From a virus: DNA of 22,338 nt. The translations under genes were made by a program, and so were the position numbers. Location: positions 1-22,338 of the IMG/VR virus record IMGVR_UViG_3300009128_000147; one strand, given 5' to 3'. Positions 1 through 22,300 of the stretch are shown here, piece by piece (position 1 is the first letter of the stretch; every line of letters starts with the position of its first letter). Below the pieces are notes generated by a model that was not told the origin of the DNA, did no database searches, and worked only from the letters and a program-made list of their open reading frames with translations.

Positions 1-207
1 ACTGGCTATCGCAGTTGCATTATCCGCGAGCCTGATGGGAGCATTAAGCGGTCTTATTCTTGCGGAGATAGTCCTTTAGGAAATATTGAGACAGGATTCA
101 AACTATTCGATGAGCCAAAAGTATGCATTACAGATGCATGTGTAAGTTCTGCTGATAGTAAAATACCTAAGAGAAAATCAAATTGTAAATTACCATTATG
201 GAAATAG
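1..207 (+). CDS. C-terminal end of a radical SAM protein (5' truncated by window edge)
   Basis: Frame 1 is open from the first base to a TAG at 205-207 and gives the last 68 residues of a protein that starts outside the window. The translation has a cysteine-rich tail: RSCIIREPDGSIKRSYSCGD, then a PLGNI segment, then VCITDACVSSADSKIPKRK with a further Cys near the end. A strand with DGS followed by a Cys, then G-N-I and a final CxxxC, is the usual look of the SPASM/twitch tail that holds an auxiliary iron-sulfur cluster in radical SAM enzymes. The next gene starts inside it with a 10-nt overlap and is itself a radical SAM gene, so this is probably the first visible member of a row of four. 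The catalytic CxxxCxxC part is not in view, so substrate and subfamily cannot be given. Confidence 0.6.
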   Translation, partial: TGYRSCIIREPDGSIKRSYSCGDSPLGNIETGFKLFDEPKVCITDACVSSADSKIPKRKSNCKLPLWK

Positions 208-1400
208 ACAACAAAGTTTTTTGTGCCCTTCCTTTTACATATGTCTATGTTGATTCTCTCAACGAATATAAGTTATGTAGTGATGCGAGATTAAGTTCAA
301 AAATCAATACAAATGATAAATCTATTTTAGAATATTTTAATTCGGAATATCTAAATGAAATTAGATTTGATATGATAAGAGGTGAATTAACAGAAAAAAT
401 ACGAGGCACATGTATTCATTGTATAGAACGTGAAGAACTAAATTCTTGGTCGAGAAGAGAAACAAAAATAAATAAAAACATTATTAAACAATTTAAAAAT
501 AATAAATTTTTAAGACCAACTTCTGATACAATAAAATTGAAATTTGGCAATCTTTGTAATTTGAAATGTTTGACATGTGGTCCTTATTCATCTTCTAGAT
601 GGGCACAAGAAAGAAATGACAAAAAAGAAATGACGGTTTTTAAAGAATTGAAAGATAGTATTAGTAAAGCAAGTTTTGAGAAATATGGTAAATTATATCA
701 AGAATCATTCGATTATGAATTTGTACTGGATATGAATTCGATTACATATAATTTTAATGAAAAATTTTATAAGGAGTTAATAACATTAATTCCTAATATA
801 AGGCGCATAATTATTTCTGGTGGAGAACCTTTTATCAATGATGAATTTTATGAGTTTATTCAATGGATAATAAAAAATAGATTTGCTGAACGTATACATC
901 TTGTCGTTTTTTCTAATATGTCAAAACTTGTGAAAAATTTTAGAGCAATTTATGACAAATTTCAGTCTTTTACTATCAATGTATCTTTAGATGGTGTTTT
1001 TAAAAAAGATGAGTATATACGAAGAGGAACTAATTTTGTAGAAAAAACAAAAAATATCGAGCAATTAATTTCGTTTTTTAATCTTGAATTTTGTTCAACA
1101 ATGTCTATTTTAAACGTCGGATATCAATCTGAAATAACAAATTTTTGTCTAAAATATAGAAAGAAACCTAGTTTTTTTAATGTTTTAGTTGAGCCATTTT
1201 ATCTTCAAATAAATAATTTACCAAATGATATTGTAGAAATTTATAAAGAAAGAAATGAAACTCATAGATTGTTCGATTCAAGTTTAAAAGAACATGAACA
1301 TTTCAAATTAGGTATAAAATACTTAAAAAAATATGATATTATTCACAATACAAATTTATTAGAAGAGTGGCCAGAATTTGAAAGATACTATAATGATTGA
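198..1400 (+). CDS. Radical SAM protein with N-terminal twitch domain
   Basis: This 400-residue protein has the architecture of the N-terminal-twitch radical SAM family. An N-terminal segment (FCALPF near residue 9, Cys in KLCSDAR near 27, CIHC near 72-75, then an SRRE block) precedes the radical SAM core. The core has the cluster-binding C120-NLK-C124-LT-C127, which binds a [4Fe-4S] cluster and S-adenosylmethionine, and S207-GGEP, a typical SAM-contacting motif. A later strand reads INVSLDG, also usual for the barrel. Family members perform radical chemistry on peptides or small molecules; the substrate here is unknown. The ATG at 198 lies inside the end of the preceding radical SAM gene and gives the complete N-terminal FCxxPF motif. 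The second twitch position has a single Cys where many relatives have CC. Family call is confident; function is open. Confidence 0.85.
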   Translation: MEIDNKVFCALPFTYVYVDSLNEYKLCSDARLSSKINTNDKSILEYFNSEYLNEIRFDMIRGELTEKIRGTCIHCIEREELNSWSRRETKINKNIIKQFKNNKFLRPTSDTIKLKFGNLCNLKCLTCGPYSSSRWAQERNDKKEMTVFKELKDSISKASFEKYGKLYQESFDYEFVLDMNSITYNFNEKFYKELITLIPNIRRIIISGGEPFINDEFYEFIQWIIKNRFAERIHLVVFSNMSKLVKNFRAIYDKFQSFTINVSLDGVFKKDEYIRRGTNFVEKTKNIEQLISFFNLEFCSTMSILNVGYQSEITNFCLKYRKKPSFFNVLVEPFYLQINNLPNDIVEIYKERNETHRLFDSSLKEHEHFKLGIKYLKKYDIIHNTNLLEEWPEFERYYND

Positions 1401-2706
1401 ACCTTCGAAAGACAATACGTTTTGTTATTATCCATTTTATGCTATAGTTTTTAAATTGTATGACAAAAATGATTTAAAAGCGGTTGCTCCTTGTTGTATG
1501 ATGCATGACACTCGTGATAAGCAAACAGAGGAGTTTCATTCAATCTTAACAAAGAACGAATTAAAAGGGTTGTCTCCACAAGAAATATTTCATCATGAAA
1601 AATTCAACAAATTGCGTAGCAATTTGTTGAATAATATAAGAGATGAAAGATGTTCAACTTGTTGGAATTTAGAAGACAAAGGTATAATGTCTCATAGACT
1701 TTATACTAGATGGCAATTCCCTGAAAAATTTAATACAGATTTAAAAGAAGTTGACATATCTTTATCCAATAAATGCAATTTAGCATGTAGAATGTGCAAT
1801 ACAGGATCTTCACATCAAATATGGGAAGATGTAGACAAACTTAAAAAAAATAATAAAATGTCTTTATTTGATGATGCTTCAAATAATTCAATTAAATCTC
1901 ACAATTTACCTCAAAATGTAAAAAACAACCACCTTATAAAATGGATTTATAATAATACGGATAAAATTAAAGTATTTAAAGCATCAGGAGGTGAACCCTT
2001 ATATGATAATAATATTCTAAATCTTTTAAGAAAATTTGTAAAAGACGGTAATAGTAAAGACACAGAGTTGGTTTTGCATACAAATGCAATGTTAATTACA
2101 GATGAAATAATAGATTTGATGAATCAATTTAGAATACAAAGACATTCTTTTAGTATTGATGGGGTTGATTCGATATATGATTATATAAGACATAACGCAA
2201 ATTTTACTATGTTGGAAAAAAACATAAAAAAATGGTTTAAGAAATCTACTAATGTTTATGCTTTAAATATTAATCTTGTATTATCCGCCTTAAATATCGG
2301 TAATGTTGTTGATTTTTTAGAATGGACATCTTTGATGTTTCATGATAAGATACGTTGTAATATTTTTATGTCGGAAGTGAGACCTCATGGTAGAGGTATA
2401 GATATTGCAAACCTACCAAATGATTATTTAATGAAAGTCAAAAAAGATATTACAGAGTTTCAAACTAAATTTGAAACATTCAGAACTAAAAAATATGATT
2501 ATATGCATAAAGGTAATTATTTTCATTATGAAATTGACAAAGTGATTTCATTAATAGACCATTCCCTCAATTATAAAAATAAAAATATAAAAAACTTATA
2601 TAATGAAATAGCACTTTTGGATGAAACCAGAAATCAAACTTATAAAGATTTTTTGAATTCAGATTTGATAGATATTTTAGATGATTATGGACGAACGATC
2701 AATTAA
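1393..2706 (+). CDS. Radical SAM protein with N-terminal twitch domain (second copy)
   Basis: A 437-residue protein related in layout to the preceding gene. The N-terminal region has FCYYPF, VAPCCMMHD and, near residues 90-95, CSTC followed by SHR, which is the canonical twitch cysteine set. The radical SAM core has C128-NLA-C132-RM-C135 and S198-GGEP, followed by FSIDGVDSIYDYIR. The ATG at 1393 is chosen over an upstream TTG at 1378 because it still gives the whole twitch motif. It overlaps the upstream stop (ATGATTGA, 8 nt), which suggests translational coupling. It is clearly homologous to its neighbour yet diverged along its whole length, so the pair is an old duplication or two independently acquired members. 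Substrate unknown; no small precursor-peptide gene is visible nearby. Confidence 0.86.
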   Translation: MIEPSKDNTFCYYPFYAIVFKLYDKNDLKAVAPCCMMHDTRDKQTEEFHSILTKNELKGLSPQEIFHHEKFNKLRSNLLNNIRDERCSTCWNLEDKGIMSHRLYTRWQFPEKFNTDLKEVDISLSNKCNLACRMCNTGSSHQIWEDVDKLKKNNKMSLFDDASNNSIKSHNLPQNVKNNHLIKWIYNNTDKIKVFKASGGEPLYDNNILNLLRKFVKDGNSKDTELVLHTNAMLITDEIIDLMNQFRIQRHSFSIDGVDSIYDYIRHNANFTMLEKNIKKWFKKSTNVYALNINLVLSALNIGNVVDFLEWTSLMFHDKIRCNIFMSEVRPHGRGIDIANLPNDYLMKVKKDITEFQTKFETFRTKKYDYMHKGNYFHYEIDKVISLIDHSLNYKNKNIKNLYNEIALLDETRNQTYKDFLNSDLIDILDDYGRTIN

Positions 2707-3640
2707 AAAAATTATAGAAGATTATACTTTAAGAGAGTTACAGCAATATTCATCTTTAATACTATTTAATTTTGATGCTACAAATAATTTTATTAAACAA
2801 TTTAAAGCAGATCATAACAGTCTCCAGTTTTATAAAAATGTCATTTTTTGGTATATAAAAAAATATAATGCCTTTCCAGAAAATATTTTGACATTTGATT
2901 TTCCTTTAAATGATGGTGGTTTGGGGGATAGATTTATTATGACTACTATTCTTTTGTACACCATTAATTCTTTTGGACATGCAATAGATGTTCAAATTAA
3001 TTTATATACTAAACCAAATCCAAACTCGCAGGTAAAAAAAGAGTTAATATTATCTGCCAATAATTTTTATGACGTTATCGAATTTTTTAATTGTAAACCA
3101 ATCAAACATAAAATAATAACTAACAAAAAAAATAATTATAAACGGTTTGAAGAATGTGATAGAAATAATTTTTATAAAAATAAAATCTATTTAAAATCTC
3201 ATGATCAATTTTGGGAAGATGGTAAATATTGGCCGATAAATTTTGAACCAAAAACTAAAACGATAATTACATTTATGTTCTATATGATTAATGATGATGG
3301 GTCTTTTGTTGAACATAATGCTGATGAATACACATCAATAACTTTTGAAATGCTGAAAAAGTTTGAAAAGGCTAAAAGTAAATTTTCAAACCTAACTTTT
3401 GTAAGATTGGAGGATGTAAATTATGAAAGAAATGTTGAGTTATTATCAAGAAGTCATTTTTTTATATCATCGGAAGGTATGTGGACACACCTATCAAGAG
3501 CAATGAAAATTGATACGATAGCATTTACAAAACTAGAAGAATTCAAAAATGAATTTAATAATCAAGGACATTTTTGCTCTGGTAATTTTGATGATTGTTT
3601 AAATGTCTTAAAAACAAAATGTATAAATCTACTGAAATAA
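2681..3640 (+). CDS. GT9-like (heptosyltransferase-fold) glycosyltransferase, putative
   Basis: A 319-residue protein. Residues 79-84 (GGLGDR) match the glycine-rich first loop of the GT9 / ADP-heptose:LPS heptosyltransferase group. A C-terminal segment (FFISSEGMWTHLSRAMKIDTIAFT) matches the donor-side loop of that group, usually written S-x-D-S-G-x-x-H-L-A. In the usual motif an Asp precedes Ser-Gly; here it is S-S-E-G, so catalysis or donor choice may differ. About 70 residues precede the first motif and match nothing I recognise. The start at 2681 (a second in-frame ATG lies at 2687) overlaps the radical SAM gene by 26 nt. The same fold recurs at the C-terminus of the 1407-residue protein encoded at 17261-21484. 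Sugar and acceptor unknown; a non-catalytic GT-B protein is possible. Confidence 0.55.
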   Translation: MIMDERSIKKIIEDYTLRELQQYSSLILFNFDATNNFIKQFKADHNSLQFYKNVIFWYIKKYNAFPENILTFDFPLNDGGLGDRFIMTTILLYTINSFGHAIDVQINLYTKPNPNSQVKKELILSANNFYDVIEFFNCKPIKHKIITNKKNNYKRFEECDRNNFYKNKIYLKSHDQFWEDGKYWPINFEPKTKTIITFMFYMINDDGSFVEHNADEYTSITFEMLKKFEKAKSKFSNLTFVRLEDVNYERNVELLSRSHFFISSEGMWTHLSRAMKIDTIAFTKLEEFKNEFNNQGHFCSGNFDDCLNVLKTKCINLLK

Positions 3641-4662
3641 CTCACGTTCATTTTGAACCAACTCAGAGGTGTCAAGCATTATGTCCGATGTGTGATAGAA
3701 CAAATAATCCTCACATCAAAAATGCTGAACTTTCCTTAGATCAATTCAAGCAAATAATAGATTCTGATTTTGCAAAGCAATTAAATAGTTTTCTCATGTG
3801 CGGAAATCATGGTGATCCTATGGTTGCAAAAGATACGCTTGACATGTATGAATGGTTAAGATATAATAATTCTGATCTCTATCTACATATGACAACAAAT
3901 GGAGGTGGTCGATCAAATGATTGGTGGAAAAATCTTGCAAAAATTTTTGGAAAAAACGGTAAGGTTACTTTTTCAGTTGATGGACTTGAAGATACAAATC
4001 ATCTATATAGAGTTAATGTTGATTGGAAAAGAGTTGAAAATTCAATGGACGTTTATACACAAGCAGGAGGAAAAGGTCTTTGGGTTTTTTTAATATTCGA
4101 ACATAATGAACATCAAGTAGAAGAAGCAGAACGTATGGCAAAACTATTTGGTCTTGAATTTATAAAGAAAAAAACAGGCAGATGGGTACAATCATACAAA
4201 GGAAATAAAATAGACAAAAAGGAAACATCTAAAGGTAATGAGATTAAACCACCGAGCAAAAAAGAATATCAGAACAAGAGTGTAAATGATTACGAAAAGT
4301 TAATAAACAACCATGGAGATTTTAATTCATATCTTGATGCTACAGAAATAGTATGTAAATCCTTACAAACGAGAGAAATATATATTTCAGCAGAAGGATT
4401 AGTAACTCCTTGTTGTTGGACGGCTGGTAAACTTTACAAATCTTATGAACGTTTGGGACAAAATCAAATGTGGTCATATCTCAATAATGAGTTACAAACT
4501 ATTAATGCCTTACATAATCCTTTGCGAAAAATTATAGAGGGAAGTTTTTTTCAAAATATAGAAAAATCATGGAATATTTCAAGTTGTTCGAATGGTAAAT
4601 CAAAAGTTTGTGCAGAAAAATGTGGAACAGGATTTGATGCATTTGGTGATCAATGGAGATAA
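3619..4662 (+). CDS. Radical SAM/SPASM domain protein
   Basis: A 347-residue protein. The radical SAM motif is at the very N-terminus, C18-QAL-C22-PM-C25, preceded by a HVHFEPTQR strand. A barrel strand FSVDGLED follows. The C-terminal part has the SPASM signature: ISAEGLVTPCCW (C265, C266), then C323, C331 and C335 in the last 25 residues, ending CGTGFDAFGDQWR. SPASM proteins carry extra iron-sulfur clusters and often modify peptides, although others act on sugars or nucleosides. The ATG at 3619 overlaps the previous gene by 22 nt; an upstream TTG at 3595 would add eight residues with no family resemblance. Unlike the first two radical SAM genes it has no N-terminal twitch, so it is a different subfamily. 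Target unknown. Confidence 0.85.
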   Translation: MYKSTEITHVHFEPTQRCQALCPMCDRTNNPHIKNAELSLDQFKQIIDSDFAKQLNSFLMCGNHGDPMVAKDTLDMYEWLRYNNSDLYLHMTTNGGGRSNDWWKNLAKIFGKNGKVTFSVDGLEDTNHLYRVNVDWKRVENSMDVYTQAGGKGLWVFLIFEHNEHQVEEAERMAKLFGLEFIKKKTGRWVQSYKGNKIDKKETSKGNEIKPPSKKEYQNKSVNDYEKLINNHGDFNSYLDATEIVCKSLQTREIYISAEGLVTPCCWTAGKLYKSYERLGQNQMWSYLNNELQTINALHNPLRKIIEGSFFQNIEKSWNISSCSNGKSKVCAEKCGTGFDAFGDQWR

Positions 4663-11345: not shown

Positions 11346-13103
11346 TTATATATCTACGTCTGAGACTAGGTAATAAGTATCTGTTACATAACCACTGGCG
11401 GCCCCTGCACCTCTGACTTTATAATAGGTTCCTGATGTATCAGGTTCATTAGGATCCTCAAAATACAGACCAGGACCAAAAACTTTATTCGTAACGTTTG
11501 TGCCTCCTCTGACTGAATTGGAAAATATTCCATGATCAAATTGAGAAGAACCTACTGATGTGGCTAAACTATAAATCGGATAATATCTACCTAAAGTGTA
11601 TAATCTATATAGTACATTTTGAATATAGTTTTTTAGATAGTGATCTCTTCTCCTTCCTAATACTGCACCATCCTCATAAGATGTGGTGCCGTAATAGACA
11701 TTCCAATTCCATCTATTATCATAATCCTCTAAATAAGGTAACTCCATCTCGATCAATCGGTTCATTCTTTCACATTTATAAACAGTGTTTGTATTAAAAC
11801 TTGACGTTGCCGTATATTTTTGATTTGCATAAAGATAAATATGTCCATCTGCTGAATTACCACTAGGTGCTAGTGTGGCATTACGAGTTTGATATTGCCA
11901 TCTATCTGTTACTTCATCAGGTGTCAATACATTTACAGTTCTAGCACTACCTTCAAAAGATGAGGCGCTTGGACTCGAATTGTTATAATTAGAAGAAACG
12001 TATATTGAACCTCCATTTGCGTGGGCAGGTTTAAAATAAAAATATTTTCCAATACCATTATAATCACCAGTAGCAAAATATTCTCTTACGTCACCACTAT
12101 TAGTTCCTTCTAATGCTGAGCCCGAATGTGCAGTAATTTTCCATCTGGATAATCTGGTAGGTCTTGCCGAGGTACTATCACCAAAACCGTCTCCTGAAAA
12201 TTTAACAAAATCTCCATATACGTTAGCAGAATTCCTAGTTATATTTTTTATCCAAAGGTTCCAAATATATCTGGTTGAGTATGCATTTAAATCATAAAAA
12301 TGATTATGACCGTCAACTGTACTCACGACATCTGAAAACGCATAATAATAATAAGTTTGTTCTTGTCCCATTACCTCTCTTACAGGATACCATCCATTTC
12401 CTGGCCAACTTGTCGCTATTTTATATTGACCAAAATTTTTATCATTATCCGTGCTCCTAATTCTAGCATTTACATATTTAAAGATTGCTTCATATATTTT
12501 TTGTACGTCTTTTTCTATCTTAACCGTACCATCAGTAGTTGCGGTTAAATGCCCATAGTCTCTTATCATTTCTGCTGGTGACCAAGCATTCACAGAAACG
12601 CTATCAGTACCGTTCCAACCTCTTATGGTGTTGTAATAATCACCATTAGTTGTTAATGTTTGACCAGAAAATCCAGGAGTAGATGTAGTATAACTCGCAT
12701 AATGACGTTGTGATAGGTAATAATGTTGTTGATTTACTATTGAAATGTCAGCAGGATCATCAAAGGTATCATCATCATCTCCATAATTATCCCATGCATT
12801 CTGTGTTTTGGATGTTGTCGTAGCGTTATATCTTGTATCAGTCACCTGAAAAGACTGAACACTCGATGTAACACCTCTATTTAATGTGGACATTATAAGT
12901 GCACCATAAGGTGCATTAGAATAATATCCCACCCAAGAAGAGTACCAACTTCGAAAATCAGCAGTAGTAAGTTTCAAAGTGAACCATTCTTGAAGTTTAT
13001 GGGCAACAACTTCTAATTCACTATCAGTCATTCTTTTTAAACCGTTGCTCATAGCTTTGAGCATTCTACTTGTGGCGTCCGTATTTGTATAAGATACTGT
13101 CAT
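11346..13103 (-). CDS. Putative virion fibre/appendage protein, large paralogue
   Basis: A 585-residue protein, Tyr/Asn/Ser/Thr/Gly-rich, with no enzyme motif. It shares with the 9392-10531 product an N-terminal block (KRMTDSELEVVAHKLQEWF, residues 24-42), QNAWDNYGDDDDTF (101-114) and a C-terminal SGTYYKVRGAGA segment. The middle is longer and diverged, as expected for host-recognition or appendage proteins. The start at 13103 gives MTVSYTNTDAT and has GGA six bases upstream. A longer frame to 13178 is rejected because its extra codons are the antisense of the tmRNA T-arm. As first gene of the minus-strand set it lies about 130 nt downstream of the start predicted from the late promoter at 13245-13238. 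Abundant Ser/Thr/Asn make it a candidate acceptor for the neighbouring glycosyltransferases (inference). Confidence 0.62.
   Translation of the reverse strand: MTVSYTNTDATSRMLKAMSNGLKRMTDSELEVVAHKLQEWFTLKLTTADFRSWYSSWVGYYSNAPYGALIMSTLNRGVTSSVQSFQVTDTRYNATTTSKTQNAWDNYGDDDDTFDDPADISIVNQQHYYLSQRHYASYTTSTPGFSGQTLTTNGDYYNTIRGWNGTDSVSVNAWSPAEMIRDYGHLTATTDGTVKIEKDVQKIYEAIFKYVNARIRSTDNDKNFGQYKIATSWPGNGWYPVREVMGQEQTYYYYAFSDVVSTVDGHNHFYDLNAYSTRYIWNLWIKNITRNSANVYGDFVKFSGDGFGDSTSARPTRLSRWKITAHSGSALEGTNSGDVREYFATGDYNGIGKYFYFKPAHANGGSIYVSSNYNNSSPSASSFEGSARTVNVLTPDEVTDRWQYQTRNATLAPSGNSADGHIYLYANQKYTATSSFNTNTVYKCERMNRLIEMELPYLEDYDNRWNWNVYYGTTSYEDGAVLGRRRDHYLKNYIQNVLYRLYTLGRYYPIYSLATSVGSSQFDHGIFSNSVRGGTNVTNKVFGPGLYFEDPNEPDTSGTYYKVRGAGAASGYVTDTYYLVSDVDI
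12766..12791 (-). repeat. 26-bp exact repeat in fibre paralogue (copy B)
   Basis: This is the partner of 10215-10240, coding the same DNYGDDDDT block in the large paralogue. Conservation at the nucleotide level in otherwise diverged genes suggests recent exchange or strong constraint. Confidence 0.8.
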
Positions 13104-13123
13104 TATAATCCATAAAAAGGTTG

Positions 13124-13131
13124 TATAAATA
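13124..13131 (+). promoter_or_regulatory. T4-type late promoter for the tmRNA
   Basis: This is an exact TATAAATA octamer. By T4 spacing transcription would begin near 13137, eight bases before the first helix of the tmRNA acceptor piece. Reading the window I found only one other exact copy, on the minus strand 107 bp away. Gene 33, a T4 late-transcription factor, is encoded in the same window. Confidence 0.55.
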
Positions 13132-13137
13132 TATATG

Positions 13138-13196
13138 TCAATGATTCTGCAGAATATCAGAACAGGACGTGGGTTCAATTCCCACCACCTCCACCA
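13138..13196 (+). ncRNA. ssrA: tmRNA acceptor piece
   Basis: This stretch carries the 5' strand of the long-range helix (13145-13151), the T-arm (stem 13169-13173 with 13181-13185) and the 3' acceptor strand ending in ACCA at 13193-13196. In isolation it mimics the 3' half of a tRNA gene, but there is no anticodon arm upstream. Confidence 0.9.
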
Positions 13197-13206
13197 ACGA
13201 GATCAC

Positions 13207-13299
13207 ATGAATGATTCAAGCAATGTGTTCCTTTGGGTATTTATATTAACACTTATATTAGGTTTTTATTATTTATTAGAAGTTTTTCTGCTTATTTAA
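13207..13299 (+). CDS. Possible 30-residue membrane microprotein inside the tmRNA intervening segment
   Basis: The 105-nt segment between the two tmRNA pieces (13197-13301) contains ATG at 13207, 30 sense codons and TAA at 13297-13299, ending two bases before the first G of the coding piece. The peptide begins MNDSSN and continues with about 24 hydrophobic residues (VFLWVFILTLILGFYYLLEV and beyond), a plausible single membrane helix. GAG lies five bases before the ATG, a weak Shine-Dalgarno. It could be real, perhaps made only from unprocessed precursor, or a chance frame in AT-rich sequence, which tends to encode hydrophobic residues. It resembles no known protein that I can name. Confidence 0.3.
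   Translation: MNDSSNVFLWVFILTLILGFYYLLEVFLLI
13238..13245 (-). promoter_or_regulatory. T4-type late promoter for the minus-strand virion genes
   Basis: The minus strand reads TATAAATA from 13245 to 13238. By T4 spacing the start would be near 13232, giving a ~130-nt leader before the ATG at 13103. That leader is the antisense of the tmRNA acceptor piece, and the promoter itself lies in the tmRNA intervening segment. Confidence 0.6.
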
Positions 13300-13301
13300 T
13301 T

Positions 13302-13476
13302 GGGGGTGTTCGGATTCGACTGACTGTGACTATGCAGAGGAGACACATCACTTGACAGATGTAAAAATGTCTGCTATAATAATCGCAAACAATAACGATT
13401 ATACCTCAGCACAAGTGGCTTTAGCCGCTTAATTGCTACGGGCTTTTCTGGTTGTGCCTGGGAACAGAAACAACCA
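13302..13476 (+). ncRNA. ssrA: tmRNA coding piece with two pseudoknots
   Basis: The 5' end is GGGGGTGTTCGGATTCGAC. The first pseudoknot has stem 1 ACATC (13345-13349) with GATGT (13358-13362), stem 2 GACA (13354-13357) with TGTC (13368-13371), and an AAAAA crossing loop (13363-13367). The tag frame follows TAATC, the usual context before the resume GCA. The second pseudoknot has stem 1 CGGGC (13439-13443) with GCCTG (13456-13460), stem 2 TGGTTGT (13449-13455) with ACAACCA (13470-13476), no base between the stems, and loop GGAACAGAA. Both have standard H-type geometry. Confidence 0.9.
13385..13432 (+). other. tmRNA proteolysis-tag reading frame
   Basis: The resume codon GCA at 13385 opens 15 codons, ANNNDYTSAQVALAA, then TAA at 13430-13432. 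With the alanine from the charged tmRNA the appended tag would be A-ANNNDYTSAQVALAA. The terminal ALAA is the ClpXP recognition end known from bacterial tags. AANN near the start and QVALAA at the end resemble alphaproteobacterial tags as I recall them. Confidence 0.92.
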
Positions 13477-13498
13477 ATAACATACAAAATTTAAAATT

Positions 13499-16207
13499 AT
13501 GCAAAAACTTCTATATGTGACACCCCATTTATCTACAGGTGGGGCTCCCCAATATCTACTTAGAAAATTAGAATTATTAATAGACGAATATGATGTTCAT
13601 GTAATTGAATTCCAAGATTTTGGAATATTCAGAATACAAAAAGATCAAATCATAGAACTTCTCAAAAAACCATTGATAACTTTAGGTGATGACAAATATG
13701 AGATAATGTCTCATATAAAAAATATAAAACCTGATATCATACATTTTGAAGAAATGCCTGAGTTGTTTAGTATATCAGATGAGTTAACACATTTAATATA
13801 TCATCCAAATAGAAAATATAAAATTTTTGAGACCTCTCATGATTCATCTTTTGAACCAGGAAATAAAAGATTTTTTCCAGACAAATTTTTATTTTGCAGT
13901 GATAATCAACTCATTAAATTTAGATCAGTTGATATACCAGCATGTGTTATAGAGTATCCTGAATACAACTATAAGAGAAACGATAGAGATCAGGGTTTGA
14001 GAACACTAGGTTTAGATCCTAATTTTAAACACGTATTACATGTTGGTCTTTTTACATCAAGAAAAAATCAAGGTGAAATATTTGAATATGCAAGACAACT
14101 TGAGAATGAAAAAATACAATTTCATTTTTTAGGTAATCAGGCACCAAACTTTAAAGATTATTGGGAACCATTGATGAATAATAAACCTCAGAATTGTATT
14201 ATTTGGGGCGAGCGTAAAGACGTTGAGAATTTTTATTCCTGTATGGATTTATTTTTATTTCCTTCAAGAGGTCATGAAGGTGATAAAGAGACAAATCCTC
14301 TTGTTTTAAAGGAGGCGGTTAGTTGGAACATTCCAATACTAATGCATAAAACAGATTCTTATATGGACAAATATGACAAAAAAGCAACTTATTTGTCAAT
14401 TGATACCAAACTCAACTTTCTAAAAATTAAACATGCGTTAGGTCTAACCGAAGGAGATGTGAATTGCTATACTGATTTTGAGGGCGATATATCAAAGCAG
14501 GTAAAAATAAATTTCAATTTTTCAGAAAAGGCATTTAATGCTTTGCATAATAAATTGATCTGTATTTACGATAAAAGAACGAAACTTTGTGTGATGAGAA
14601 GTAAGGTTATGGTGCAAAACATGTTTTGTACACCAAGTCCTCTGGCAAGTCTCGTAGACGGTTTTACTGTAAAAATTTTTGATGCGAAGGAGAGTTATTT
14701 TTCAAATTTAAGAGATTTAAATTTCAATAGAATAGACAAACATCATCTGTTATATGAAAAAAGTTTCTCATTCAATCGTGATATACCAAGCGTAACTGTA
14801 AATGGACAAGAAATAGATGTTGTGGGTATTGATGATGATCCATCATCTTGGTTTACTATGAATGAAGTTTTTATTTCAAAAGTTTACAAAAAACTTGATA
14901 TACGAAAAGATGATGTTGTATTAGATGTTGGAGGCCATTATGGGTTCTTTTCATTATATGCTTTGGATAAAGGTGCAAAAGAAGTTCATGTGCTTGAACC
15001 TTCACACACAAATTATAAAATAATTTCTAAGAATTTAAAAAACTTTGATAATGTAAAAAAATATAATTGTGCTTTGAGTAACGATGTTGGTGAAAAAGAA
15101 TTTTTGCTTGTTGGTCCTAGTAGTACAAATTCGTTTTATGAAAGTTATAATACTCAAAATGAAAATCCAACATCATTAGGACAGACTAAAAAGATTGAAG
15201 TGAATACGATGAGTTTCAATCATTTCATACAAAACAATAACGTAAATAGAATAGATGCAATAAAATTAGATTGTGAAGGTGCTGAGTGGGATATATTTCC
15301 GACCATATCAGACGATTTTTTAAAACATAAAGTAAGAAAAATTAGTGCCGAGTTACACCAATTTAATAATTCGGGTAATTTAGATGATCATTACCACCGA
15401 TGTCAAGAACTTGAAAACAGACTAACAAATTTAGGTTTTGATGTTGAGCGTGAACATATCAAAAGTTCTCAACCAGACGAGAACGGTTTAGGACAGTTAT
15501 GGGCAAAAAGATATCCAAAGATCAAAGTAGTTCACATGTTATGTACCACTGAAGGATCAAGAGAAATTGAGAGTATAAAACATATAACAGAATTATTAAA
15601 TGTCTCTGGTTGGGTTTATGAACAATCTATGAATAAAAGATTTACTGACTTACCACCTGTAGATACTTGTGCTAGACCTGATGTTGTTCAAATGGAGCCT
15701 GGTGATTATAAATTGACTGGTGCCCATTATGGTAATTATATGGCTCATCGTAGAGTATTTGAAGAACACATGACTGATGATTATGATGCTATTTTGTTTT
15801 GTGAGTGTGATGCAATATTTATTAAACCTCCAGAAGAAGTATTCAAAATTATTATTGACAGTTATGATGATTTAATGTATAATGATTTGAATTACATGTC
15901 ATTTGGTAAACGCATACCTGATTGGCATTATGATGAATATGAAGATTTTGGAGTTACAGATAGAATGTCAGAAGCACACTGTTATCTAGTACCAACAAAT
16001 AAAAAATCATATTTTATTGAAAAGTTTGAGAATACTGGTTGGGACACATATGATCTATGGTTAAATTCGTTTGTATTTCCTGATAAAAAATGTGGTATTG
16101 TTAAAGATCCAATATCAATACAGTGTTCGGGCGATTCATATCTTGATAAATCTCATAAAGACGGTACAACATTATTAAAAGAAGGTGATGTGACTTATGA
16201 GTTGTGA
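13499..16207 (+). CDS. Three-domain glycan enzyme: GT4 glycosyltransferase - FkbM methyltransferase - GT-A glycosyltransferase
   Basis: A 902-residue cytoplasmic-looking fusion. Residues 1 to about 350 are a GT-B/GT4-type transferase: YVTPHLSTGGAPQYLLRKLE at the N-terminus, LHVGLFTSRKNQGE before the second Rossmann half, and LFLFPSRGHEGDKETNPLVLKEA at the donor site. About 350-455 is a connecting region I do not recognise. About 455-673 is an FkbM-type methyltransferase with L475-DVGGHYGFF (SAM loop), HVLEPS, and IKLD591-CEGAE596. From 675 on is a GT-A-like domain with LFCECDAIF, where E769-C-D771 stands in for DxD. The ATG is 22 nt after the tmRNA and has no Shine-Dalgarno; the gene may share the tmRNA transcript. 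It overlaps the next gene by 11 nt. Expected role: build and O-methylate an oligosaccharide; identities of the sugars unknown. Confidence 0.78.
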   Translation: MQKLLYVTPHLSTGGAPQYLLRKLELLIDEYDVHVIEFQDFGIFRIQKDQIIELLKKPLITLGDDKYEIMSHIKNIKPDIIHFEEMPELFSISDELTHLIYHPNRKYKIFETSHDSSFEPGNKRFFPDKFLFCSDNQLIKFRSVDIPACVIEYPEYNYKRNDRDQGLRTLGLDPNFKHVLHVGLFTSRKNQGEIFEYARQLENEKIQFHFLGNQAPNFKDYWEPLMNNKPQNCIIWGERKDVENFYSCMDLFLFPSRGHEGDKETNPLVLKEAVSWNIPILMHKTDSYMDKYDKKATYLSIDTKLNFLKIKHALGLTEGDVNCYTDFEGDISKQVKINFNFSEKAFNALHNKLICIYDKRTKLCVMRSKVMVQNMFCTPSPLASLVDGFTVKIFDAKESYFSNLRDLNFNRIDKHHLLYEKSFSFNRDIPSVTVNGQEIDVVGIDDDPSSWFTMNEVFISKVYKKLDIRKDDVVLDVGGHYGFFSLYALDKGAKEVHVLEPSHTNYKIISKNLKNFDNVKKYNCALSNDVGEKEFLLVGPSSTNSFYESYNTQNENPTSLGQTKKIEVNTMSFNHFIQNNNVNRIDAIKLDCEGAEWDIFPTISDDFLKHKVRKISAELHQFNNSGNLDDHYHRCQELENRLTNLGFDVEREHIKSSQPDENGLGQLWAKRYPKIKVVHMLCTTEGSREIESIKHITELLNVSGWVYEQSMNKRFTDLPPVDTCARPDVVQMEPGDYKLTGAHYGNYMAHRRVFEEHMTDDYDAILFCECDAIFIKPPEEVFKIIIDSYDDLMYNDLNYMSFGKRIPDWHYDEYEDFGVTDRMSEAHCYLVPTNKKSYFIEKFENTGWDTYDLWLNSFVFPDKKCGIVKDPISIQCSGDSYLDKSHKDGTTLLKEGDVTYEL

Positions 16208-17264
16208 AGATTCGATAGTATGTATTCATGCACATTTAAGTGATGAAGAAAGAATTAATGTCTGTCTTGAATTTGTTAGAAAAATAAAGTCGTTTGGTTA
16301 TGAGGTAATTGTAACATCTCATACCCAAGCGACAAAAGAATTTCAAGAAGAAGTTGATTATTTTGTTTATGACAAAGACAATATTGTTTTGACGGATGTA
16401 GAGTATCTTGGTTGGATGACATGGTATGCACCGAATTACGATATCACTTCAAAGGAATTTTGTACATATAATACAGTCTTAGCAGTTTACAGATTAATGC
16501 ATATCGGTACGGCTTATGCAAAATTATTAGGTAAATCAAAAATACATTTGTTTGATTATGATGGTTTGTTAGAAAAACCAGATGAATTAATTATTAATGA
16601 GAATAAAATAGATAACGGTTTAGATGGTGTATTTTATTATTGGCAAAATGAAAAAACTGTTGACGATGGTAGAGGATATGATACATCTGTGACAACCAAG
16701 ATGCAAACAACTACACGTTTTATATCTGCTAGGGTCGATTATCTTTTAGAAAGATTTGAAAAATTAAAAAATGTTCAGGATCAAAAAAATATTTTAAATG
16801 AATATAGTTTTTTAGTTGGTGAAGAATTTTTTGCATATGCCTTTGGCTTGACCGCATATAATGGTGATGATAGAAATAGAAATGTAGAACTTTTACCTTT
16901 TGTAGATAATCTTGAACGTATAGGTATGATTCAAGATAGAGTGCATACACATCAAGATTTTTCGTGGGTCGCATTGACGTTATCGGAAAAAGTTGTTAAC
17001 TCTCCAGCAGAACCTGCACCTAATTTTCTTTTTTTAATGAACCCCCATAAAGAAACAAAATTTCAAGTTTTCATAAACAAACAAGAAAAACCTTTTTTTG
17101 AATTTAATGCTGGTAAATATCATTATCATCTTTTACAATTATATGGAGATTCTATAATCGAAGTATATTGTGATGATAAACTTTTTAGAACATATGATTT
17201 ATTTGATCAGTCAATTAAGACACGATTGAAAATTTGCAACTCCCTTTATTTTAAGAATTCATGA
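16197..17264 (+). CDS. Putative GT-A-like glycosyltransferase with C-terminal beta domain
   Basis: A 355-residue protein. The N-terminal half starts VCIHAHLSDEERINVCLEFV, continues GYEVIVTSHTQ and reaches IHLFDYDGLL (D120-Y-D122), a plausible DxD; this order (strand, helix, DxD after a long helix) is what GT-A enzymes show. The last ~90 residues (PNFLFLMNPHKETKFQVFIN onwards) look like a small beta domain. It overlaps the preceding gene by 11 nt and the next by 4 nt (ATGA), so the three glycan genes are coupled. No membrane segment. Family assignment is tentative because only one short motif supports it; its place between two multi-domain transferases is the stronger argument. Confidence 0.5.
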   Translation: MSCEDSIVCIHAHLSDEERINVCLEFVRKIKSFGYEVIVTSHTQATKEFQEEVDYFVYDKDNIVLTDVEYLGWMTWYAPNYDITSKEFCTYNTVLAVYRLMHIGTAYAKLLGKSKIHLFDYDGLLEKPDELIINENKIDNGLDGVFYYWQNEKTVDDGRGYDTSVTTKMQTTTRFISARVDYLLERFEKLKNVQDQKNILNEYSFLVGEEFFAYAFGLTAYNGDDRNRNVELLPFVDNLERIGMIQDRVHTHQDFSWVALTLSEKVVNSPAEPAPNFLFLMNPHKETKFQVFINKQEKPFFEFNAGKYHYHLLQLYGDSIIEVYCDDKLFRTYDLFDQSIKTRLKICNSLYFKNS

Positions 17265-20200
17265 AACCTAAAGTAAGCGTATTAGTTCAAACCTGTGATA
17301 ACTATTCTCATTTTTGGGAAGGTTGGTATGTTATGTTCAATAGGTTTTGGGACTTTGATTTAGATTGGCAGATATATTTCTGTAATGAAGAAAAAGATTT
17401 TCCATATCGAGATGATCGAATAAAACAATTGAAGACAGGTAAAAGCAAGCAATATTGGGGAGTTGAAGAACGAGAATGGATACCTGACTGGTATGGAAAG
17501 CCCAAACAAATAGATGAAGGTTGGAGTGATAGACTTATATACATGTTAGAGAATGTTGATACCGATTACATTTTTTACATGCAAGAAGATCAATGGCCTA
17601 AATTTAAAATTGATAAAGAAATGTTTTCAGATCTTGCTAGTTTTTGTTATTCTTATGATGTTGATGCTTTAAAATTGCATAGAGTTATAAGACTTGATCA
17701 TGTTGTACCTAAACGTGAAACAGACATATACATTAGGAATAAAAGACTTATTCAGTGGGGTCCCGAAAATGATTGGTTAGTCAGTCATCAACCAACTTTG
17801 TGGAAGCGTGAATTTCTTCTTGATTTACAGATCAAAGGTGAAGGGTTCAGAGATAATGAATATGCAGGTACAGATAGATTGAAAGAAAAATATAAAGATA
17901 ATTTTCCAAAGATTTATAGTTATAATCATGATTGGTTCTATGAAAGATCAGCCGCATCTCGTGGTGATTGGGTTGAACCTGTGCAGTGGGAATTTGATGA
18001 AGTTAAACATGAAATAGAAGTAGAGAAAAAATATAATCTTATAAAACCGAAACACGAAACCAAAAGTAAGGGCCTAAAACTTTCGCTTATTACTTCATGT
18101 TTTAATGCTGAAAAGTTTATAGATGAATTAGCCGAAACTGTAATACATCAAAATTATGATAATTGGGAATGGGTTATTGGAGATGATTTTTCTGATGATA
18201 ATACATTTCAAAAATTGTTGGAGTTACAAAATCGTGATCCAAGAATAAGAGTAGCATTTCCAAAGCACAAAAAACAGATGTGGTGGAACCCACAAAAATT
18301 TGCAACTGGTGATATCGTTTGTCATTTAGATGCTGATGATAAATTGCTACCTAATTGCTTTGAAAAGATAAACTATTATTTCAAAATTTTTCCAGAAGTA
18401 GTTTTAATGCACTTTAATGCAAACAAATATTCTGAAAAATTGCCTGTTGGTCCAAAACAGACATTTGAAAATTATAAAGATAATGTCTATATGTCTACTG
18501 ATAACGATTCGTTTTTAGAAGGTTTTGAAAAGTTATGGCATTGTAGAAGTAGTATATTTGGATATTTAAGAATTTTTAGAAATCTACCAGGGCTTGAATT
18601 TCCTGAACATCAAGACAGTGATGCCTGTTCTTCAAATGATGGACAGTGGTTGTTGATGCTTGAAGAACGTGGAAAATGGATGACAATCCCTAGAACACTA
18701 TACATTGCCAGAGAGCATGGTGCATCTGAAAATTTTACGAGATGGAATCAAAGAGGTGAGGCACAACTTGCAATAGATGCTAGAAAACGTAGAAAAGAAT
18801 TTGTTTTAGAATATCCCCGTAATATCAAATATTTTGATGATATTTATGAACTTGCAGAGTCAACATATACAACTTCTCTAAATTGGGCCGATAAAATACA
18901 AACACTATCATTTGTGAATTATGATTATACAGATAATCAAAAAGACAAATCGAGAAAATTATTTTTTGATCATGATATAAGGTTTGATTTTTTTGATCAA
19001 TCGGTCGACTATTATTTTTTTAAAATTCAATTAGAGACTGAACCGGCCTTTGTCAACAATAAAATTCAACAAATAAAAAACAGTAATGCTCAAAACTATG
19101 AGATAGTATTCTTTTGTGAGAATAAAAATTTACATTATAATTTGAGAACTGGTGTTGATAATATTCAATCGATATATGATGTTATTTTAGGAAACGGATA
19201 TCAGTTCAATTTCTTTGAGCAAATGAATCGATATCATATTGTTTCTTTAAAGAATTTCGAAGAGACAAAAATAGAAATAAAAGAAGATTTTAAGATCGAA
19301 AAAATAGAAAATAAGGTTGAGAAAACTGATAACTTAAAAATTATGCAAGTGCATGTGGGGTGTGGTCTTGACATACCACCTAAGAAATATGGTGGACTAG
19401 AAGAAGTAATTTATCATTATATAAGAATGACAGAACATTATGGACATGATGTATCATTAAAATGGTTAGATGATATTACACAAGCAGATCTTGATGAATA
19501 TGATGTGTTTCATGTACATACTGGGGGTTTTGCAGATTTAGTAGTAGATAGGTGCATACCTTACATCTTTACAACTCATGATGTGCATCCTTGGATTAAT
19601 GGAAAGGAATCATGGTATTATCGTGTCAATAACAAATCAATAAAAAATTCATTATTTTCATTAATTCCTTGTGATCATTTAATACCATATTATGACACTC
19701 CTGAAAAATTGAGAAAATTAGATCATGGCGTCGATTCTAATTTCTTTTTTCCAACTAACAATAGAAAAGATAAACCCAGACTTGTTTGTGTAGGCGGTGG
19801 GGATGATCGTAAAGGTTTTCATTTTGCTATTCAGGCGGCACACAAATTGAATATGCCTATTACAATAGTTGGTCCAGATAGCATACATGAAAATTATAAT
19901 GATATTTTTTACAAGGTGTTAAACAGTTGTAAAAAAGATATTGAAATTGTACAGGCAGGAAATGTAGATAAAAATGAACTGAGGAAAATCTTAAATGAAC
20001 ATGATATTATTGTTCATCCTTCATCTATTGAGACTGGACAACCGTGTCTAGCGGTACTTGAAGCAATGGCATGTGGTTTACCATGCGTAGGAACTATGCA
20101 AGATAAGGTAGAAATTCCTGGTTTGGTGGAGTGTACAAGAGAAGTTGATACAATTGTCGAGGGTATAAGAAATATCATTAACGACTATGATGACTATTCT

Positions 20201-21484
20201 AAGAAAGCAAGAGCATTTGCAGTAGAAAGAGATTGGGTTAATATATTTAAACCACTTGAAAAATATTATTACGAGGCAAGAGATTTGAAATCGAGCAAAC
20301 CAAGATCGATGAAAGATCGATTGATATTTGCTTATAACAATACTGACTTTCAGAAAAAGGAATCAATCGTTGAACAAAATCAAATCAATATTAAATTTGA
20401 TCCAAACCCAATTGTAGAAATACTGGGCAATACTGAAAAACAATATGATGTCACATTTAAAAATTTAGAAAATGGTGGTACAGTATATTCAAATGTGATA
20501 GGAAATAATAATTGGTGTGGATCAAATATTCAATATTTCATGCAATGGCACATTATAGTTAAAGAAAAGGATGGACCAATTGTTAAAGATCACAAGATGA
20601 ATTTGAATAATGAATCTGTTTATATTTATTTTGATTCTGGTGCTTTGGGGGATAATTTAGCATGGGTTGGTTCAGTAAATCAATTTCAGCAAAAACACAA
20701 GTGCAAGGTTTATTGTTTCACGTTTTTTAATCATCTGTTTAGAGACAAGTATCCTAATATAGAATTTATTGATGAACACAATACATTCTTGAATAGTGGT
20801 AAATTTACATACAAATATTGGATTGGTTGGCTTACAGATGACATGAGCAAATGTCCTGAGGACACGAAAAAGATCCCGTTACAAAAAGTAAGTTCTTCAA
20901 TTCTAGGACTTGACTATAAGGAAGAACGTGCTAAAATAATGGTTAATGAATTAGAAGCAGATTTACAAAATCCATATGTGTGCATAGGAATGCAATCTAC
21001 GGCACAAGCAAAATACTGGAACTATGAAGGAGGGTGGGATGAAATAATTAAATATCTTAAAGAAAAAAATTATGATGTCGTATGCGTTGATAAACATCAA
21101 ATGTTTGGAGCAGGTAATTTTATGAATTCTGCTCCTGAAGGTGTAATTAATAGACACGAAAGAACATTAGATCAGACAATAGCAACTATAAACGGATGCG
21201 AATTTTTTATGGGTCTTGGATCTGGACTGTCTTGGCTTGCTTGGGCATTAGAAAAACCTGTTGTATTGATTTCAGGATTTAGCGAGCCCTATTCCGAATT
21301 TGATATTGAGTGTGAACGAGTACACAATAACGATGTATGTAATAGTTGTTATAATAGACATAAATTTGATCCTGGTAAATGGGATTGGTGTCCTGACAAT
21401 AACGATTTTATATGCACAAAAAGTATTACGCCAGATATGGTCAAACATTCAATCGATAATATAATCAAAAAATTAAATGCTTAA
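17261..21484 (+). CDS. Four-module giant glycosyltransferase: GT-A-like - GT2 - GT4 - TibC/Aah-like heptosyltransferase
   Basis: A 1407-residue protein, far longer than single-domain relatives (~300-450). Residues 1-265 start MKPKVSVLVQTCDNYSHFW and have FYMQEDQWP, a GT-A-like fold with ED for DxD. Residues 272-525 are GT2: LSLITSCFNAEKFIDELAET, IGDDFSDD, HLD357-ADD360. About 530-690 is an unrecognised region ending in a charged linker. Residues 692-1040 are GT4: VHVGCGLDIPPKKYGGLEEV, VCVGGGDDRKG, E924-TGQPCLAVL-E934. Residues 1048-1405 match the autotransporter O-heptosyltransferase family (TibC/Aah): an N-terminal beta part (YDVTFKN... QYFMQWHI), DSGALGD1131, LGLGSGLSWLAWAL, and a four-cysteine metal finger C1360-x2-C1363-x13-C1377-x7-C1385. 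That family transfers heptose to Ser/Thr of surface proteins. It overlaps neighbours by 4 and 8 nt. Confidence 0.8.
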   Translation: MKPKVSVLVQTCDNYSHFWEGWYVMFNRFWDFDLDWQIYFCNEEKDFPYRDDRIKQLKTGKSKQYWGVEEREWIPDWYGKPKQIDEGWSDRLIYMLENVDTDYIFYMQEDQWPKFKIDKEMFSDLASFCYSYDVDALKLHRVIRLDHVVPKRETDIYIRNKRLIQWGPENDWLVSHQPTLWKREFLLDLQIKGEGFRDNEYAGTDRLKEKYKDNFPKIYSYNHDWFYERSAASRGDWVEPVQWEFDEVKHEIEVEKKYNLIKPKHETKSKGLKLSLITSCFNAEKFIDELAETVIHQNYDNWEWVIGDDFSDDNTFQKLLELQNRDPRIRVAFPKHKKQMWWNPQKFATGDIVCHLDADDKLLPNCFEKINYYFKIFPEVVLMHFNANKYSEKLPVGPKQTFENYKDNVYMSTDNDSFLEGFEKLWHCRSSIFGYLRIFRNLPGLEFPEHQDSDACSSNDGQWLLMLEERGKWMTIPRTLYIAREHGASENFTRWNQRGEAQLAIDARKRRKEFVLEYPRNIKYFDDIYELAESTYTTSLNWADKIQTLSFVNYDYTDNQKDKSRKLFFDHDIRFDFFDQSVDYYFFKIQLETEPAFVNNKIQQIKNSNAQNYEIVFFCENKNLHYNLRTGVDNIQSIYDVILGNGYQFNFFEQMNRYHIVSLKNFEETKIEIKEDFKIEKIENKVEKTDNLKIMQVHVGCGLDIPPKKYGGLEEVIYHYIRMTEHYGHDVSLKWLDDITQADLDEYDVFHVHTGGFADLVVDRCIPYIFTTHDVHPWINGKESWYYRVNNKSIKNSLFSLIPCDHLIPYYDTPEKLRKLDHGVDSNFFFPTNNRKDKPRLVCVGGGDDRKGFHFAIQAAHKLNMPITIVGPDSIHENYNDIFYKVLNSCKKDIEIVQAGNVDKNELRKILNEHDIIVHPSSIETGQPCLAVLEAMACGLPCVGTMQDKVEIPGLVECTREVDTIVEGIRNIINDYDDYSKKARAFAVERDWVNIFKPLEKYYYEARDLKSSKPRSMKDRLIFAYNNTDFQKKESIVEQNQINIKFDPNPIVEILGNTEKQYDVTFKNLENGGTVYSNVIGNNNWCGSNIQYFMQWHIIVKEKDGPIVKDHKMNLNNESVYIYFDSGALGDNLAWVGSVNQFQQKHKCKVYCFTFFNHLFRDKYPNIEFIDEHNTFLNSGKFTYKYWIGWLTDDMSKCPEDTKKIPLQKVSSSILGLDYKEERAKIMVNELEADLQNPYVCIGMQSTAQAKYWNYEGGWDEIIKYLKEKNYDVVCVDKHQMFGAGNFMNSAPEGVINRHERTLDQTIATINGCEFFMGLGSGLSWLAWALEKPVVLISGFSEPYSEFDIECERVHNNDVCNSCYNRHKFDPGKWDWCPDNNDFICTKSITPDMVKHSIDNIIKKLNA

Positions 21485-21701
21485 AATACTATCACCTCAA
21501 GATTTCATAATAACAATTGAGCATATAAGAAGGTCAAAAAATATGACCTATATGGATGCTATTCAATATTATTGTGAACAAAATAATATAGAATTAGAAA
21601 CGATTGGTAAACTTGTTCAAGGTGCTTTAAAGCAAAAAGTAAGAGAAGAAGCCGAAGAATTGCATTTTTTTCCTAAACCAACTCGCATACCTGGACTATG
21701 A
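21477..21701 (+). CDS. 33: Late-transcription accessory protein, T4 gp33-like
   Basis: A 74-residue protein, shorter than T4 gp33 (112 residues) but with its core. FIITIEHIRRSKNMTYMDAI and YYCEQNNIELETIGKLVQGA, followed by LKQKVREEAEEL, correspond to the T4 segment with MSYLEATTAFLEENSIPETQFAKFI and the following helix. In T4, gp33 binds the flap of RNA polymerase and, with the sigma-like gp55 and the sliding clamp, activates late promoters of the TATAAATA type. Two such promoters are present at 13124 and 13245. The adjacent gene is a gene 59 homologue, the same order as in T4. The start overlaps the end of the giant glycosyltransferase gene by 8 nt. Confidence 0.8.
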   Translation: MLKILSPQDFIITIEHIRRSKNMTYMDAIQYYCEQNNIELETIGKLVQGALKQKVREEAEELHFFPKPTRIPGL

Positions 21702-22300
21702 TCAAAGTGGAACCTTACGAATGTTACAAAGAATATGTCGCAATTAAAAAACATTTTCAGTATCCTACATACGATTATTTCAAATATTCAGGAAGAACTC
21801 GTACTTCCAAAGTAACATTTTCAAAAAGAAAAGATCAATATTTTTTCAATAAATTGGCAAGAAATTATAGTGATGATGAAATCACAAAGTTTTTTGTGGC
21901 AAATTTTGTAGATAGTGAAACTTTCTACATTGAAGATGCATTAACAGAACAGGCCGAACTTTTATATAAAGATTGGCGAAAAAGAATTCAAAGTTTGTCA
22001 TATATGTTCAATAATGATATTGATAAACTTTTGAATGAACATCATTTTGATGATTTGTTTAAAGTTGAAAATGGCCAGCATCCCATTTTACTGAAAATGG
22101 GTATTGCTAAATATATTATGATTGAGACTTTTATCATACTTAATGATGTTGTTAATTTTGTGCCGAAATGGAATAAAAGGATTTCAGAAAAAATAATCTG
22201 GCCCGATTATCTCAAAAAAGTGCAAAAGTATTCTCCATTCTTGGAGGTGGATAAGACGAAATTCCGTGATATACTTCGGAAGAAACTTGACATTTTATAA
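21698..22300 (+). CDS. 59: Replicative helicase loader, T4 gp59-like
   Basis: A 200-residue protein (T4 gp59: 217). TFSKRKDQYFFNKLARNYSDDEITKFFVANFV aligns with the T4 region YQKRRDKYFFQKLSEKYKLKELALIFISNLV, and the C-terminal SEKIIWPDYLKKVQKYSPFL with NLVWNNYSIKLKAYRKIL. The protein loads the gp41 helicase onto gp32-coated forked DNA and links recombination intermediates to replication. It is basic and has no enzyme motif, as expected. It starts in an ATGA overlap with gene 33. In T4 the next gene is 32; the window ends 38 bases after this stop, in what looks like that gene's promoter region. Confidence 0.87.
   Translation: MIKVEPYECYKEYVAIKKHFQYPTYDYFKYSGRTRTSKVTFSKRKDQYFFNKLARNYSDDEITKFFVANFVDSETFYIEDALTEQAELLYKDWRKRIQSLSYMFNNDIDKLLNEHHFDDLFKVENGQHPILLKMGIAKYIMIETFIILNDVVNFVPKWNKRISEKIIWPDYLKKVQKYSPFLEVDKTKFRDILRKKLDIL

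Follow-up and report, generated by a model that had tools for sequence, protein, structure and literature searches.

The stretch of viral DNA analysed here, called the window throughout, is a virus record of 22,338 nucleotides (22.3 kb), and genes missing from it therefore carry no meaning. It holds a permuted, two-piece tmRNA gene (ssrA) situated in a divergent intergenic region (Table 1). To the left of this region lie three minus-strand genes (13103-9392) that gave no PHROG match and whose layout suggests tail or structural proteins, and to the right lies a glycosyltransferase/methyltransferase cluster (13499-21484), followed by a gp33-type regulator and then by gp59. The gp59 protein is 43% identical to that of Pelagibacter phage HTVC008M and 41% identical to that of Melnitz, the nearest isolates, with cyanophages next. 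The genome is placed among the T4-like phages because a gp33-like regulator is present, and, judging from the core T4 genes (gp33-type and gp59), the phage is T4-like and related to the Kyanoviridae. Radical-SAM proteins and long multi-domain glycosyltransferase genes occur at 198-4662 and 13499-21484, and these are phage surface-glycan or modification cassettes.

Table 1. Positions of the features discussed in the text, with the basis for each.
Feature	Position	Strand	Basis or remark
T4-type late promoter motif TATAAATA	13124..13131	+	predicted start ~13137, where the acceptor piece begins
Permuted (two-piece) tmRNA gene, ssrA	13135..13476	+	RF04321 score and structure read from the sequence
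Acceptor piece	13137..13196	+	RF04321 alignment and reading; 5' end inferred from the promoter position
IVS, predicted to be removed on maturation	13197..13301	+	exactly 105 nt, from the encoded CCA to acceptor-stem G1
30-codon ORF in the IVS	13207..13299	+	ATG 13207 ... TAA 13299; peptide MNDSSNVFLWVFILTLILGFYYLLEVFLLI*
Second TATAAATA, inside the IVS	13238..13245	-	points at the divergent genes 13103-9392
Coding piece	13302..13476	+	acceptor 5' strand GGGGGTG, D-loop region, 3' strand of the inter-piece helix, PK1, tag, PK2
Tag reading frame ANNNDYTSAQVALAA*	13385..13432	+	GCA...TAA, from the RF04321 alignment
gp33-like late promoter regulator	21477..21701	+	phrog_254, E 4.7e-17
gp59-like DNA helicase loader	21698..22300	+	phrog_269, E 2.3e-61

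An Rfam cmscan of the whole window matched the tmRNA_permuted model (RF04321) at 13134-13432 on the plus strand with 100.5 bits (E 7.6e-19) against a gathering cut-off of 47 bits, and the same model scored 87-95 bits on relatives of the locus (94.6 for L046, 88.9 for L042, and 87 for L540). The older beta_tmRNA model aligned across 13077-13482 at 48.5 bits, below its own cut-off of 84, and ARAGORN detected no gene at the tmRNA locus. The acceptor piece, with its T-arm (13169-13185 by sequence reading) and CCA, lies 5' of the coding piece, and the spacer (IVS) lies between them. Reading of the sequence pairs GGGGGTG (13302-13308) with CACCTCC (13186-13192) in an acceptor stem of 7 bp, in which the alanine identity pair G3-U70 is present, and discriminator A73 together with the encoded CCA occupies 13193-13196 (CCA alone 13194-13196). 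The two pieces are linked by a helix of CTGCA (13147-13151) with TGCAG (13333-13337), and this long-range helix is only partly supported because its outermost pairs hold mismatches in the RF04321 alignment. PK1 (ACATC/GATGT with GACA/TGTC) was read by inspection of the sequence only; PK2, in which TTTCTG/CAGAAA is interleaved with TGGTTGT/ACAACCA, ends at 13476, and both of its stems are found again in L046 and L540. The tag frame terminates in a proteolysis signal, ending in ALAA, and the tags ANNDDYTSAQVALAA are conserved in L046 and L063. The window gene is confirmed as a complete circularly permuted two-piece tmRNA. The sequence-only reading had named a permuted ssrA here, and the positive covariance search and the stems and tag bear out its identification, coordinates, and anatomy, just as the late regulator and gp59 downstream bear out its T4-like assignment; its proposal that processing would depend on host RNases follows soundly from what is known of how two-piece tmRNAs mature. 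Its view that a split, permuted tmRNA would be notable in a T4-like phage is out of date, given Melnitz (PMC9004378) and hundreds of metagenomic loci.

The tmRNA of the window belongs to an already known kind, since Melnitz, phage entries in a tmRNA database, and phage S-CAM3 precede it. In 2022, PMC9004378 described Melnitz, a T4-like phage of OM43 (Methylophilales) in which the late coactivator is immediately preceded by a two-piece tmRNA. This rules out calling the present gene the first permuted tmRNA in a T4-like phage, and the paper also reports tmRNAs in 402 phage genomes, with 53 of 133 unique structures in two pieces and 50 of those 53 marine or aquatic. The 2025 database that is the source of RF04321 lists 79 phage tmRNAs (PMC11915505). 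Melnitz (MZ577095-MZ577098), like the phage of the window, is marine and T4-like, and its permuted tmRNA likewise precedes gp33 and gp59, with TATAAATA just upstream of the acceptor piece and an SD-preceded ORF in the IVS. It differs in that gp33 follows within 0.3 kb, whereas ~8 kb of glycan genes intervene in the window; its promoter is of a composite sigma70/late type, whereas that of the window is late only; its IVS ORF is unrelated to the window ORF and continues past G1; and a glutamine riboswitch is reported for it (PMC9004378), for which Rfam gave no match in the window. In one Melnitz record (MZ577097, L089:5026-5478), the SD-preceded ORF MFKWLSKTRLVVITRDYFRERNRKADAKIPKYLSGTRSVYDGG... 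lies unannotated under the SsrA feature, and a cut at G1 would turn this ORF into a non-stop message. Synechococcus phage S-CAM3 (KU686198) is likewise a T4-like marine isolate with a permuted tmRNA, of the cyano type (127 bits), but its IVS has only a few nt and the nested ORF is absent; a CDS deposited as hypothetical protein AOV58949 overlaps this tmRNA (L557:1461-1730). Homing-endonuclease ORFs carried by group I introns of tmRNA genes (PMC11915505) are likewise protein genes within a removed precursor segment. However, those introns are self-splicing and lie in the T-loop, whereas the window has a permuted-gene spacer presumably removed by tRNA-processing enzymes, and, unlike the intron-encoded proteins, the IVS microproteins match no known family.

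Only two copies of the T4-type late promoter motif TATAAATA occur in the window, against 5.7 expected by chance, and both lie in the tmRNA intergenic region. More widely, 59 of 115 phage permuted tmRNA genes have ATAAATA no more than 150 nt upstream (3.9 loci expected), and 42 occurrences fall into one bin, 71-80 nt before the CCA end, from which transcription is predicted to start where the acceptor piece begins. The plus-strand copy in the window stands at the right distance from the predicted gene start for a T4-type late gene. A perfect TTGACA lies 16-18 nt upstream of the late motif in 14 of 54 cases and in none of the shuffles; the pair is a putative composite sigma70/late promoter, which Melnitz has and the window lineage lacks, the sigma70 -35 box being absent ahead of the late motif in the window (3/6 match). 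PMC9004378 states that an early promoter precedes the tmRNA of Melnitz, non-intergenic promoters having been excluded there, and the annotated Melnitz SsrA feature covers the TATAAATA; the late motif would thus refine that statement. On the minus strand, NATAAATA is found in the IVS of the window, L046, L063, and L042, with a divergent upstream gene in all four, and among distinct loci with a classified neighbour a minus-strand motif in the IVS accompanies 4 of 17 divergent vs 3 of 189 co-directional arrangements. A promoter on the opposite strand of the IVS would drive the divergent genes, and its transcripts would be antisense to the acceptor piece. The coding piece itself contains a perfect extended sigma70 consensus (TTGACA-17-TATAAT with TG; 13352-13380, plus strand), matched 12/12 in L046 and L042 as well and visible in L540. 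It might serve the glycan cluster as an early promoter or simply reflect the PK1 and resume-codon sequence; since RNA structure may account for this motif, it is not counted among the promoters here.

The ORF within the IVS appears to be the gene of a tiny membrane protein, a 30-codon single-helix peptide with one TM segment predicted by hydropathy. Relatives of the window lineage were gathered by T-arm pattern, gp59, and the neighbouring glycosyltransferase, and all near-identical loci keep the complete 30-codon ORF. In L046 and L063 (IVS 107 nt), the ORF encodes MNDFNNVFLWVFILSIILGLYFALDFILVS and a near copy of it, respectively, and in L540 (IVS 108 nt), whose glycosyltransferase is 62% identical, it encodes MNDTSNIVMWCLILACIIGGYYILSAILM; all three have the same frame and differ in amino acids at tolerated sites. 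Start, stop, and frame are conserved in the relatives, as is the SD, which reads AGGAG directly after CCA and before the ATG in these relatives, though it is weak (GAGA) in the window itself. No indels are needed to align the ORFs, whose lengths differ by a single codon at the end, and the number of nucleotides after the stop codon varies. Pooled pN/pS, calculated over the only four distinct sequences of the family, is 0.47 in the ORF frame, against 0.81 and 1.94 when the remaining frames are read, a sign of frame-specific purifying selection, and this 0.47 is the weakest value among the ATG-started families. Between the window and L540, 14 of 29 residues are identical at a DNA identity of 51/87, a score reached in 0 of 20000 shuffles, and in the shuffled window IVS an SD-preceded ORF of such length has a P of 0.003 (0.028 for a 30-codon ATG ORF regardless of SD). 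A chance ORF is rejected by these shuffles and by frame-wise pN/pS. The window peptide has no credible Pfam or PHROG match, and neither it nor the MKNPLV peptide of another family matched anything in 50,697 phage records. When the sequence alone was read, the 105-nt segment had been taken as waste and the conserved ORF inside it missed; the putative late promoters, at the 5' end of the gene and on the opposite strand within the IVS, had been overlooked as well.

As far as sequence comparison can tell, the nested-ORF arrangement is a recurrent one across many marine phages. Gapped-pattern scans of viral contigs, together with earlier loci, yielded 338 loci of permuted tmRNAs, among which 226 different IVSs occur, and statistics were calculated on 117 non-redundant phage IVSs. 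An ORF of at least 30 aa with SD and ATG is present in 15 of the 117 (shuffles: mean 0.74, max 4), and an ORF spanning at least 60% of the IVS in 23 (shuffles: mean 2.06, max 6); the majority are without such an ORF. The peptide families are in many cases unrelated to each other and include MKNPLV...YLIFF (38 aa), MFKWL...YLSG (the Melnitz type), MLKWF...YEDLCK, MENLILL...KKDFF, and MKYK...NTII. In-frame pN/pS in families other than that of the window is 0.29, 0.30, 0.33, 0.30, 0.38, and 0.39, with 0.70-1.97 in other frames, and purifying selection specific to the frame is thus seen there too. A hydropathy screen found a membrane-helix-like stretch in 16 of the 23 IVS peptides examined, three members of the window family being among the 16 and L196 being borderline. 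The neighbours of such loci are phage genes, with gp59 near the tmRNA in L304, L213, and L376 and an endolysin in L223 and L342. Three loci with an MKNPLV-type IVS (L332, L340, and L377) carry tandem small ORFs, MIVEFNILGGKDEEPPST... (MTLEELRGYDEEPPS... in L332) plus the MKNPLV peptide.

These frames relate to the coding piece in different ways. In the closed layout, found in the window, MKNPLV, MENLI, and other families, the stop precedes G1, often by 1 nt and in the window by 2 nt, and in the read-through layout the frame starts in the IVS and ends beyond G1 (42 nt past it in the Melnitz type). In the through-frame layout, a single frame runs from the acceptor piece via the IVS into the coding piece, such that no ATG is needed in the IVS; this family has the motif YYTxxEWSR..G.GPLPPERN and an in-frame pN/pS of 0.25-0.50, and the eight IVS lengths observed, from 86 to 170 nt, all equal 3n+2. 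Through-frame loci, in which the frame spans the entire permuted tmRNA gene, are L004, L005, L016, L048, L055, L094, L161, L189, L193, L211, L236, L242, L300, L310, and L349.

The permuted tmRNAs of Alphaproteobacteria, Betaproteobacteria, and Cyanobacteria (RF04321; RF01849-RF01851) share with the window the order of acceptor piece, IVS, and coding piece, as well as the tRNA-like domain, tag, and pseudoknots, but differ in their short IVSs. A bacterial control by DNA pattern returned many unrelated high-GC matches, with a tag in 27 of 79, and a covariance search of alphaproteobacterial genomes was therefore used too. The 106 alphaproteobacterial RF04321 matches, all above the cut-off, have a median span of 217 nt, and only 4 reach 280, against 299 for the window. 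In the alphaproteobacterial loci read, which were the best-scoring ones, a choice favouring short spacers, the IVS measures 3-53 nt, with a single exception of 110 nt, and is thus mostly too short for such an ORF. A sample from the class of an Azoarcus MAG gave few permuted matches. In a small bacterial IVS set (n = 14), there were no SD-preceded ATG ORFs of at least 30 aa and one ORF spanning at least 60% of the IVS (L435). The latter locus looks like a phage contig and lies in a Flavobacteriales MAG (G004; L435, L474) that holds three permuted tmRNAs above the cut-off; these are probably phage contigs binned with the MAG.

Translation of the IVS might instead be regulatory, in that translating the segment, or having a ribosome halt by the RNase P site, would control maturation and the peptide would be dispensable. 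The closed families do place their stop close before G1, at exactly 1 nt in several, and cleavage of the Melnitz-type frame, which crosses G1, would yield a non-stop mRNA; amino-acid-level constraint is nevertheless present in every family tested, which implies that the peptide itself matters, and this explanation is considered unlikely. Less probable again is an ordinary two-piece tmRNA with a non-coding spacer, in which the ORF is a frame that came to be open by chance in AT-rich DNA and has persisted through recent common descent. The 2.8% of window-IVS shuffles with an ATG ORF of that length, the mere four distinct family members, and the tendency of AT-rich DNA to encode a hydrophobic composition would all be compatible with such a frame, but L540 retains start, SD, frame, and nearly half of the residues at its low DNA identity, pN/pS is frame-specific in the window family and about seven further families, and ORFs exceed the shuffles in the 117 IVSs. 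A similarly slim chance is given to the proposal that the phage tmRNA is a decoy or inhibitor of host trans-translation and not a working tmRNA. A tmRNA-like RNA of phage DS6A is reported to inhibit E. coli tmRNA (cited in PMC11915505); that form has no tag frame, whereas the resume codon, full ALAA tag, G3-U70, and PK2 are all kept and conserved here. Conservation of the IVS for what it does as DNA or RNA, for instance through the divergent late promoter or processing signals, and not for protein, agrees with the four NATAAATA-bearing IVSs beside divergent genes, but is highly improbable in view of L540, which has the ORF without NATAAATA and a co-directional upstream gene, of the codon-position pattern and frame dependence, and of through-frame indels that preserve the 3n+2 length.

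The interpretation that we hold with good confidence is that of a late-expressed functional tmRNA whose precursor doubles as a microprotein mRNA, two products thus arising from one precursor RNA. Its computed basis consists of the tmRNA fold and tag, the phage context, the in-frame constraint on the ORF, its recurrence, and the fixed-distance late-promoter motif; from there we infer transcription, processing, charging, tagging, translation, and membrane location. Late transcription would start at ~13137, and host tRNA-processing enzymes would free the acceptor piece with its CCA end and the coding piece starting at G1. Once paired, the two pieces would presumably accept alanine and would add ANNNDYTSAQVALAA, as a proteolysis signal, to proteins whose ribosomes have stalled. 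The spacer of 105 nt would in addition act as a minigene, with ribosome initiation ~10 nt past CCA, a 30-residue single-helix membrane peptide as its product, and a stop 2 nt before the RNase P site. In the window lineage, the same segment would further carry the late-promoter motif for the divergent genes. As a guess, the peptide may be a small membrane effector of late infection, for instance in lysis timing. A wider and doubtful proposal is that phage permuted tmRNA precursors form a general class of dual-output RNAs in which the spacer is a mini-mRNA for late microproteins. Where the frame crosses the RNase P site, as in the Melnitz and MFDRL types, the cut would make a non-stop message and peptide output would be limited by the released tmRNA, a self-limiting switch between peptide and rescue RNA.

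The tmRNA itself is already known in marine T4-like phages, and the IVS ORF is the part for which no earlier report of an ORF in a tmRNA spacer was found in searches of an open-access library; the passages found of PMC9004378 and PMC11915505 do not mention a spacer ORF. Such nested ORFs were apparently overlooked because annotation masks tmRNA genes, and the idea is directly testable because cultured phages, the Melnitz isolates, carry such an ORF. If these ORFs are translated, protein genes would sit inside a part of a structured non-coding RNA that is otherwise thrown away, which would help to explain the long spacers, mostly absent from hosts, in many two-piece tmRNAs of phages. The ORFs would also enlarge the stock of phage microproteins, in many cases by single-helix membrane peptides, and would tie a ribosome-rescue RNA to late phage expression.
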